A stretch of DNA of 64,000 nt from Aequorivita sp. CIP111184. Lineage in GTDB: Bacteria > Bacteroidota > Bacteroidia > Flavobacteriales > Flavobacteriaceae. The notes under the pieces are model-generated. The model saw only the letters and a program-made list of their open reading frames with translations, ran no database searches and was not told the origin of the DNA. Positions within the stretch are counted from its first letter, which is position 1; each line of letters starts with the position of its first letter. The DNA is taken from positions 186,001 through 250,000 of the forward strand of contig NZ_UEFQ01000016.1 of the NCBI RefSeq assembly GCF_900489465.1, in the 5' to 3' direction. Positions 39,131 through 39,607 of the stretch are shown here, piece by piece. Both the position numbers and the translations under genes were made by a program.

Positions 39131-39203
39131 GGTGCCTTAGCTCAGTTGGTAGAGCAACGGACTGAAAATCCGTGTGTCCCTAGTTCGATTCTTGGAGGCA
39201 CCA
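39131..39203 (+). tRNA. tRNA-Phe (anticodon GAA)
   Basis: 73-nt cloverleaf. The acceptor stem GGTGCCT pairs with AGGCACC and the D stem is GCTC/GAGC. The anticodon stem ACGGA/TCCGT has loop CTGAAAA, giving anticodon GAA. The T arm is CCTAG-TTCGATT-CTTGG. No CCA is encoded after discriminator A. The T stem has one T-T mismatch in its middle pair: CTTGG where CTAGG would pair perfectly. The same 'TTGG' occurs in the partial tRNA copy at 39529-39570, which suggests that the 3' part came with the downstream cassette. Confidence 0.95.
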
Positions 39204-39243
39204 CTTAAATCCCCAGACAATTTGTTTGGGGATTTTTTGTTTT
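39176..39243 (+). repeat. Direct repeat copy 1: tRNA-Phe 3' end plus terminator (att-like)
   Basis: From GTCCCTAGTTC (39176-39186) through the tRNA 3' end and the terminator to about 39243, this block is repeated at 39529-39607 on the other side of the GIY-YIG gene. The shared stretch after the T loop (TTGGAGGCACCACTTAAATC... ) runs about 50 bp with a single clear mismatch (ACAATTT versus ACAGTTT). Confidence 0.85.
39207..39238 (+). terminator. Terminator of tRNA-Phe
   Basis: AAATCCCCA (39207-39215) pairs with TGGGGATTT (39227-39235) around an 11-nt loop and is followed by a T run, a standard Rho-independent terminator a few bases after the tRNA. Confidence 0.85.
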
Positions 39244-39247
39244 AATT

Positions 39248-39529
39248 ATGCATTATCTCTATATAATTCATTCCCTCACGCTCGATAGCTATTATGTTGG
39301 TGAAAGTCCAGATATACATAAAAGGCTTAAACAGCACAATGAGCATTATTTCAAATCAAATTTTACCAAAGCCGCGACTGATTGGAAAATTTCACTGGAA
39401 TATGAGTGTGCAAATAGATCGGAAGCATTATTTCTTGAAAAGTTTATAAAGAAAATGAAGAGCAGGGTGTTTATTGAAAAGGTTATAGACAATCCCAAAA
39501 TACTGTTAGATATATTAAAAAGAAAATAG
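39248..39529 (+). CDS. GIY-YIG nuclease-domain protein, cassette-borne
   Basis: 93 residues, essentially a bare GIY-YIG domain of the YhbQ/UvrC-N type: 'Y-L-Y-I-I-H-S' and 'S-Y-Y-V-G-E-S' form the GIY/YIG strands, 'I-H-K-R-L-K-Q-H-N' supplies the conserved Arg and 'S-E-A-L-F-L-E-K-F-I-K-K-M-K-S' the metal-binding Glu. All expected catalytic positions are present. It lacks any DNA-recognition domain. It starts 45 bp after tRNA-Phe, and the tRNA 3' end plus terminator is repeated immediately after its stop, so the gene sits between two direct repeats. A role in its own spread at tRNA genes is a reasonable hypothesis. Confidence 0.88.
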   Translation: MHYLYIIHSLTLDSYYVGESPDIHKRLKQHNEHYFKSNFTKAATDWKISLEYECANRSEALFLEKFIKKMKSRVFIEKVIDNPKILLDILKRK

Positions 39530-39607
39530 TCCCTAGTTCCCCCGATGGTTCGGGGTTGGAGGCACCACTTAAATCCCCAGACAGTTTGTTTGGGGATTTT
39601 TTGTTTT
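39529..39607 (+). repeat. Direct repeat copy 2: partial tRNA-Phe 3' end plus terminator
   Basis: GTCCCTAGTTC (39529-39539), then a 16-nt palindrome CCCCGATGGTTCGGGG replacing the T-loop/T-stem bases of copy 1, then TTGGAGGCACCACTTAAATC and the terminator. It has no D arm or anticodon arm, so it cannot be a tRNA. The boundary coincides with the last codon and stop of the GIY-YIG gene. Confidence 0.85.
39571..39602 (+). terminator. Duplicated terminator after GIY-YIG gene
   Basis: AAATCCCCA (39571-39579) pairs with TGGGGATTT (39591-39599), followed by a T run. It is the second copy of the tRNA-Phe terminator and ends transcription of the GIY-YIG gene. Confidence 0.8.

Follow-up and report, generated by a model that had tools for sequence, protein, structure and literature searches.

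A probable homing-type GIY-YIG nuclease cassette in the tRNA-Phe gene of Aequorivita, with relatives at other tRNA genes of the phylum

Several known systems combine repeated gene ends, small nucleases, or short palindromes. Integrative elements at the 3' ends of tRNA genes repeat the tRNA 3' end and restore the tRNA, and REP sequences with their RAYT transposases associate a short dispersed palindrome with a small nuclease family. Two further systems involve homing-type endonucleases. According to a published account, the mORFs of fungal mitochondria, found in atp6, atp9, cox2, and nad3 of Glomus and in atp6 of Allomyces, consist of an endonuclease gene that lies inside another gene and brings a replacement 3' end, with the native 3' end displaced downstream (PMC3630166). 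The same account indicates that mORFs are thought to move via a double-strand break and that the enzyme of the Glomus atp6 mORF is a LAGLIDADG endonuclease (PMC3630166). In phages T4 and T6, another report describes SegB, a free-standing GIY-YIG enzyme encoded among tRNA genes, which cuts in tRNA genes at the motif RAWTSGAAC and promotes the amplification of segments containing tRNA genes and segB (PMC13096335).

The window analyzed here is the whole stretch of 64,000 nucleotides from the genome of Aequorivita sp. CIP111184 (G000; G-numbers designate the genomes compared and L-numbers the loci fetched). In a preliminary description, a tRNA-Phe gene followed by a single 93-codon GIY-YIG gene had been noticed in it, and both were borne out by ARAGORN, by the open reading frame, and by a match to Pfam PF01541 (E 1.6e-12). 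The features of the locus are collected in Table 1. The nuclease gene starts a few bases 3' of the T run of T1; the upstream flanking gene is one that we take to be coaX-like, and the downstream one is presumably GHMP-kinase-like.

Table 1. Features of the tRNA-Phe locus and its flanks (window coordinates).
Feature	Position	Strand	Basis
Upstream flanking gene, 242 aa, ancestry marker	38257..38985	-	ORF
Intact tRNA-Phe(GAA) gene	39131..39204	+	ARAGORN; Rfam RF00005, 69.7 bits
Presumed target AGTTCGATTCTTGG within tRNA-Phe	39182-39195	+	14-mer
First terminator (T1), between tRNA-Phe and nuclease gene	39207..39243	+	Inverted repeat then T run
GIY-YIG nuclease gene, 93 codons and stop	39248..39529	+	ORF; PF01541
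L', partial tRNA, positions 46-56	39529..39539	+	Junction analysis
Palindrome P, CCCCGATGGTTCGGGG, replacing tRNA positions 57-61	39540..39555	+	Junction analysis; hairpin fold
R', partial tRNA, positions 62-74	39556..39568	+	Repeat and junction analysis
Second terminator (T2), T1 copy with one mismatch	39571..39607	+	Repeat comparison
Downstream flanking gene, 299 aa; adjoins tRNA-Phe in empty relatives	39630..40529	-	ORF

The repeat spacing of 353 bp given earlier was right, with copies of GTCCCTAGTTC beginning at 39176 and 39529, the second of which overlaps the final base of the nuclease stop codon. A 52-nt block comprising TTGGAGGCACC and the terminator recurs 364 nt away with 98% identity, which rules out chance. 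The tRNA 3' end and the whole terminator had been said to recur at the stop codon; the repeat is real, but it is not an uninterrupted copy. The second tail reads GTCCCTAGTTC, CCCCGATGGTTCGGGG, and TTGGAGGCACCAC, then the second terminator, ending at 39607, and in it the T-loop bases GATTC (tRNA positions 57-61) are exchanged for the 16-nt palindrome. Folded as single-stranded DNA, CCCCGATGGTTCGGGG forms a 6-bp hairpin of -5.9 kcal/mol, a stability equaled by 4 of 200 shuffles.

There is no integrase between the repeats, where the GIY-YIG gene is the sole ORF of at least 60 aa. A group I intron around this ORF was rejected, as the seven Rfam matches obtained for 38900-39800 at E up to 1 include no intron family, only the tRNA passing the threshold. 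Simple duplication of the terminator, an alternative raised in the preliminary description, was also rejected: the repeat is more than a terminator, spanning the tRNA tail, and the same build is found at many tRNAs. Finally, a T-T mismatch in the T stem was considered as a sign that the tRNA is a patchwork of two tRNAs; this was rejected since the mismatch also occurs in empty relatives and in the other genera read.

The predicted structure of the 93-aa protein (pLDDT 94.3) is a single GIY-YIG fold with two C-terminal helices. Residues Y16, G18, R26, and E64 are invariant in 22 relatives; which of them are catalytic positions is assumed here for the GIY-YIG family in general. No PDB fold matched the model at E 0.001 or better. 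Its best folds were UPF0213 BH0048, the HIGLE catalytic domain, and Slx1, with the I-TevI catalytic domain lower, and the closest solved sequences are the UPF0213 proteins BH0048 and EF2693. The dN/dS ratio, computable for 13 of 21 pairs, ranges from 0.06 to 0.31, with dS below 1 in only two pairs, whose dN/dS ratios are 0.31 and 0.27. Judged by sequence, the protein is an endonuclease of a known homing family that appears to have kept its catalytic positions.

Compared with integrative elements, the cassette has no integrase, its palindrome-bearing junction lies in the T-loop, and the entry points in other tRNA kinds are different. With respect to REP/RAYT systems, the gene linked to the window palindrome encodes a GIY-YIG protein and not a Y1-type transposase. 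UPF0213/Slx1-type proteins are the closest to the nuclease by sequence (UPF0213) and among the closest folds, but nine other GIY-YIG loci used as controls, some of this type, had no tRNA in the 3.2 kb fetched for each (seven from the window genome and two from relatives; L001-L004, L006-L008, L037, and L038). SegB has 221 aa and is phage-borne, whereas the window nuclease has 93 aa and resides in a bacterial chromosome. The reverse complement of the SegB motif, GTTCSAWTY, matches the T-loop GTTCGATTC of the window tRNA-Phe and is absent from the remnant, although this loose 9-mer occurs six times in the whole window. A profile comparison gave no convincing match with SegB (0.9 bits for the best domain and -1.9 bits over the full sequence), and around T4 segB there is neither a partial tRNA copy nor a CCCGA..TCGGG palindrome. 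Because SegB is not close and its T4 locus lacks these features, the locus is better placed as a homing cassette on the mORF plan than in the SegB family. In anatomy it shares with mORFs the replacement gene end, the endonuclease, and an apparently displaced native end; it differs in its bacterial chromosome, its tRNA targets, and its unit of about 350 bp, as well as in the junction palindrome, tandem arrays, nuclease-less units, and mirror forms described below. The available part of the mORF account names no palindrome (PMC3630166), and on the best reading the palindrome is a component that is new relative to the mORF plan. Among the literature titles searched, which took in few subscription papers and no preprints, none described a bacterial element of this build.

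The reading that we consider probable is thus that of a homing-type mobile cassette which lives in tRNA genes, follows the mORF plan, and rebuilds its tRNA. The unit is best drawn as the 3' part of the tRNA (R), the terminator, the GIY-YIG gene, L', and P. Comparison places it at one fixed point inside the tRNA (for tRNA-Phe in the T-loop, from 56 to 62), with an intact tRNA upstream and, downstream, what seems to be an L'-P-R' remnant of the old end. This supports the initial proposal of a minimal tRNA-targeting nuclease cassette that restores the tRNA end without an integrase, for which we infer DNA cleavage.

Filled and empty alleles of this site coexist within one genus. Among 26 tRNA-Phe loci of Aequorivita, six contain nuclease and remnant (G000, G005, G012, G013, G019, and G027), one (G016) has only tails, three in tandem, all palindrome-bearing and without nuclease, 18 have no cassette, and one (G010) is unread. 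G020 is filled, but split by a contig end. Ten of the 18 cassette-free loci have one terminator followed directly by the GHMP-kinase-like gene that comes after the cassette in the window; the other eight have a different flank or a contig end. Relatives with a single tRNA end at the locus, which the preliminary description had proposed to look for, therefore exist, and the arrangement is not common to all relatives, several of which are without the cassette.

The nuclease gene is more alike than the upstream coaX-like gene in 2 of the 15 pairs of filled genomes, G005/G012 (DNA identity 97% versus 74.9%) and G000/G019 (91% versus 80.6%), which favors the cassette reading first proposed. For the remaining 13 pairs, three have identities equal within 0.015 and ten have lower identity in the nuclease than in the flank; there, the cassette is either old or vertical. 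Judged from the upstream gene, G000, G005, and G012 are closest to G011, G003, and G014, respectively, and the latter three are all empty. Ancestry was also followed by counting, on each side of tRNA-Phe, the sites that distinguish two possible parents. In G012, the counts for the G014/G004 side are 95:11 upstream and 21:95 downstream (Fisher 7e-29), and the break falls in the interval from 63 bases ahead of the tRNA to tRNA position 27. The counts change from 98:36 to 47:98 in G000, with a break between -52 and +125, and from 82:66 to 39:198 in G019, with a break at -52 to -48; as these two genomes were used as each other's parent, they represent one case and not two. G005 has no single switch (Fisher 0.15) and carries a donor-like tract from -175 to +311. 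Each segment score was reached by 0 of 2000 permutations, in a test that ignores linkage between sites. Among six control trios of empty genomes, Fisher p was 0.00016 to 0.0048 in three and >0.05 in three, and no best switch fell inside the tRNA; all were far away except for that of G025 (weak, -103 to -92). Since conserved tRNA genes may attract ordinary recombination endpoints, these ancestry changes support a break in the tRNA but do not prove it. Taken with the identities, they indicate that the cassette moved from one species to the same site of another, with co-conversion of its flanks.

The terminators fit placement of this unit within the tRNA and displacement of the native end. In G013, T1, which follows the intact tRNA, has its closest counterpart in the G005 element, and T2, which follows the remnant, in empty G014 and G001, a clear case of a foreign replacement end and a native displaced one. 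The T2 of G005 equals that of empty G018 and G023; its T1 is closest to G013 and next to its empty neighbor G003, so the direction of exchange is ambiguous. T1 and T2 show no difference in G012 and G019 over the 38 bases compared; they are one base apart in G000 and similar in G027. A phage or plasmid vector was rejected, as the window protein had no match in phages, plasmids, or viral contigs; one Val-type relative protein also had no match in viral contigs.

The position of the palindrome is largely fixed for each tRNA kind. The tRNA-Phe junction 56|62 with a 16-nt insert was found at 13 distinct loci in several genera. Other recurring junctions, with 18-nt inserts, are Met 35|41, Asn 45|51, Arg(CCT) 22|27, and, in the mirror form of Asn, 14|18; Leu 68|72 was seen once, and Val 28|46, with an 18-19-nt insert, replaces exactly the anticodon arm. 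In some remnants there is a further palindrome elsewhere, or the insert has another length, and a mixed locus in G001 has a head remnant with its palindrome at 24|33 and tails at 55|61. The junction finder required exact 8-mers on both sides, so that decayed remnants were missed. Among unique inserts of up to 30 nt, 37 of 65 have a stem of at least 5, compared with 3.2% of shuffles. When inserts of 15-20 nt were chosen regardless of symmetry, 25 of the 36 unique ones had a perfect terminal stem of at least 6, and a stem of 5 was reached by 86 of 36000 shuffled inserts. The core (T/C)CCCGA..TCGGG(A/G) is common to different tRNA kinds and extends to phylum-level loci at tRNA-Asp (TCCCGACTAGTCGGGA in L183), with paired changes at several stem positions. 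Some elements, among them those at Pro(GGG) and Arg(TCG), carry other palindromes.

The palindrome also occurs away from the cassettes. The pattern TCCCGA N3-9 TCGGGA is present in 5-72 copies per same-genus genome, versus 0-3 for the reversed pattern. Fifteen contexts were read, corresponding to 13 distinct ones because L152, L155, and L158 overlap, and most of these are away from tRNAs. That the palindromes are plain terminators was rejected, since in the contexts read no T run is adjacent except in L160 and L162, which could be minus-strand terminators. Counts of nuclease genes and palindromes per genome are loosely positively related by eye, with one clear exception, G021, which has 51 palindromes and no match to the window protein. 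As separate observations, dispersed TCCCGATAGCTATCGGGA in L154, L164, and L166 lies in or beside short repetitive intergenic stretches away from tRNAs, and in L018 (~1249-1450, G002) the palindrome is amplified in tandem inside a Val-type remnant with a 24-nt period. L152 (G021, at a contig end) contains three tandem 86-bp tRNA-Pro-like 5' heads with the palindrome after tRNA-Ser(GCT); there is no nuclease in the fetched stretch, and this is a nuclease-less array of the mirror type. ARAGORN labels palindrome-bearing tRNA-Val remnants as tRNA-SeC, -Stop, -Gln, or -Lys (L018, L019, L023, L083, L094, and L116) because the palindrome mimics an anticodon arm, and false tRNA genes are to be expected in annotations of these genomes.

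With a profile built from 16 relatives, matches were obtained in 188 of 299 genomes of the family (E up to 1e-8) and in 132 of 296 of the phylum (E up to 1e-10). The weak ones among them may belong to different GIY-YIG families, and reading was confined to strong loci. The 67 strong family loci (L070-L136) comprise the matches ranked down to E 5.6e-20, with each array counted once, and a further one at 3.0e-19, leaving out the window's own locus and L021, L025, L027, L028, and L035; L082 and L099 belong to the same array. An intact tRNA on the same strand lies within 200 nt of 52 of the 67, upstream in 39 (median 52 nt) and downstream in 13 (median 24 nt). In 43 of these 52, a partial copy of that tRNA was detected on the other side of the gene; six of the other nine were read, with a degenerate remnant in L070, L076, L085, L102, and L131 and none in L119. 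The 15 loci without a tRNA within 200 nt include three with one at 234-425 nt (L112, L115, and L132) and two with a tRNA inside the gene array (L074 and L091). Among the other ten, a degenerate remnant was visible by eye in L099 (the array shared with L082), L106, L117, L120, and L136, and none was seen in L128 (L078, L081, and L088 were left out of this reading). Another structural RNA as neighbor of tRNA-less loci was rejected, since at 12 loci the Rfam matches were limited to a SAM riboswitch and a single tRNA fragment. In the phylum search sample, with a tRNA limit of 250 nt and with L178 and L179 repeating earlier loci, 25 of 27 loci, and 18 of 19 outside the family, had a near tRNA and a partial copy. 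Most strong relatives of the gene in family and phylum thus adjoin tRNA genes with repeated tRNA pieces, in agreement with what the preliminary description had suggested looking for. That description did not include the junction palindrome, nuclease-less units, tandem arrays, mirror forms, or tRNA kinds other than Phe.

In the family, the nearest tRNAs are Phe, Val(TAC), Asn, Met, Arg(TCT), Arg(CCT), Arg(TCG), Pro(GGG), Pro(TGG), Leu(TAA), His, Ala(GGC), and Ser(TGA); the phylum sample adds Asp, Thr(TGT), Arg(ACG), and Pro(CGG), for a total of 17 (13 + 4). A mirror form, in which the gene precedes the tRNA and the remnant is a 5' one, exists at Asn, Arg(CCT), Arg(TCG), and Pro(GGG), and at Phe in L111, with a near-complete tRNA copy. 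At least two nuclease matches are present in 24 of the 67 loci, with a maximum of 7 (profile matches over 100 nt, broken genes counted). The nuclease clade tracks tRNA kind and orientation, with 21 changes versus a shuffled mean of 53.3 and 0 of 200 shuffles as low, in a tree of a short protein in which 9 of 77 inner branches are starred. Among other small GIY-YIG genes, repeats resembling gtcacgctgagcttgtcgaagc and its reverse flank L001, L037, and L038 (within ~200 bases of the gene) and the repeat tctcgatacaaatttaa flanks L003, so short repeats may accompany small GIY-YIG genes more widely.

The Phe junction falls inside the 14-mer AGTTCGATTCTTGG, which has exactly two copies in each of four Aequorivita genomes, one in tRNA-Phe and the other in tRNA-Arg(CCT), whereas 0.026 per genome are expected by chance at equal base frequencies. 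A site deduced at tRNA-Phe predicts scars at the other copy of the 14-mer, and these were present in two of the four genomes, G000 and G001. In G000, tRNA-Arg(CCT) is followed by three tails of the form AGTTC-CCCCGACGCTTCGGGG-TTGG and by a fourth that has decayed, and this part of the contig yielded no nuclease match; in G001, tRNA-Phe has no cassette, and a Phe-clade nuclease lies beside tRNA-Arg(CCT), where three tails of this form are present. No scar is seen at the tRNA-Arg(CCT) of G012 or G019. The remnant lacks AGTTCGATTCTTGG, with P in its place, and the intact tRNA-Phe of the filled chromosome retains it, which weighs against the homing reading in that the chromosome would be open to self-cutting.

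It is proposed that the nuclease would be expressed by read-through from the tRNA and would cut the T-loop of tRNA-Phe genes. The break would be repaired by copying the cassette-bearing chromosome, so that the tRNA remains whole, and the remnant, in which P replaces the target, would be spared from cutting. Recombination between the repeated tails could produce tandem arrays and nuclease-less tails, and the latter could likewise appear in trans, at a different tRNA with the same target. Other tRNAs and other positions are used by related clades of the nuclease, some of them as mirror images that restore the 5' half of the tRNA.

The alternative that survives best, though we think it unlikely, is that of a repair scar with a passenger, in which the nuclease cuts tRNA genes, faulty repair duplicates the tail and places a ready-made dispersed palindrome at the break, and the nuclease gene is simply caught between the copies. 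Such a process would account for the nuclease-less P tails at tRNA-Phe of G016 and at tRNA-Arg(CCT) of G000 and G001, for the double palindromes within single remnants (L025, L091, L110, and L116), and for the many palindromes scattered through each genome; however, the lateral movement of the nuclease gene together with its remnant and the single unit build across many genera fit copying of a unit better. Less probable still is that the gene is an old and mostly inactive neighbor of the tRNA, whose patchy distribution reflects loss and ordinary interspecies exchange with endpoints in the tRNA, with no drive by the nuclease required. The 13 pairs without excess nuclease identity, the conservation of tRNAs, and decayed nuclease copies with internal stops, found among the family profile matches, are compatible with this scenario, but it does not sit well with fixed junctions in different tRNAs, isotype-specific clades, the scarring of the same 14-mer at a second tRNA, and the conservation of catalytic positions. 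Very improbable, lastly, is a protein that acts on tRNA as RNA, as a toxin or in defense, with the P remnants as transcript decoys or regulators: nuclease clades do associate with tRNA kinds and P is a hairpin within a likely transcript, but DNA-level junctions, lateral movement, and arrays are outcomes of DNA breaks, and SegB, a tRNA-linked GIY-YIG enzyme, cuts DNA (PMC13096335).

The homing cassette thus remains the favored reading, and a broader one can be put forward tentatively, as a whole that we consider somewhat more likely to fail than to hold. It would see these elements as phylum-wide parasites of tRNA genes that pair a conserved mini-palindrome with a minimal GIY-YIG nuclease, the latter breaking a given tRNA gene at one point. 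Repair would install the palindrome at the break and duplicate one half of the tRNA, and the host would keep a working tRNA and gain a cut-proof scar. Acting in trans, the nuclease would seed scarred, nuclease-less tails at tRNAs sharing its target, and the palindrome itself would be a new mobile or repair-templated DNA mark, dispersed beyond tRNAs.

Fungal mitochondria are known to harbor cassettes that bring a replacement piece of the target gene; the present one, of ~350 bp, seems to exploit essential tRNA genes of bacteria, and its relatives occur at 17 tRNA kinds in the phylum. Small candidate nucleases specific for tRNA genes, of roughly 70-95 residues, are hereby offered for study. Two questions also become testable: how a nuclease may live beside its intact target, and what role a conserved palindrome may play at the break.
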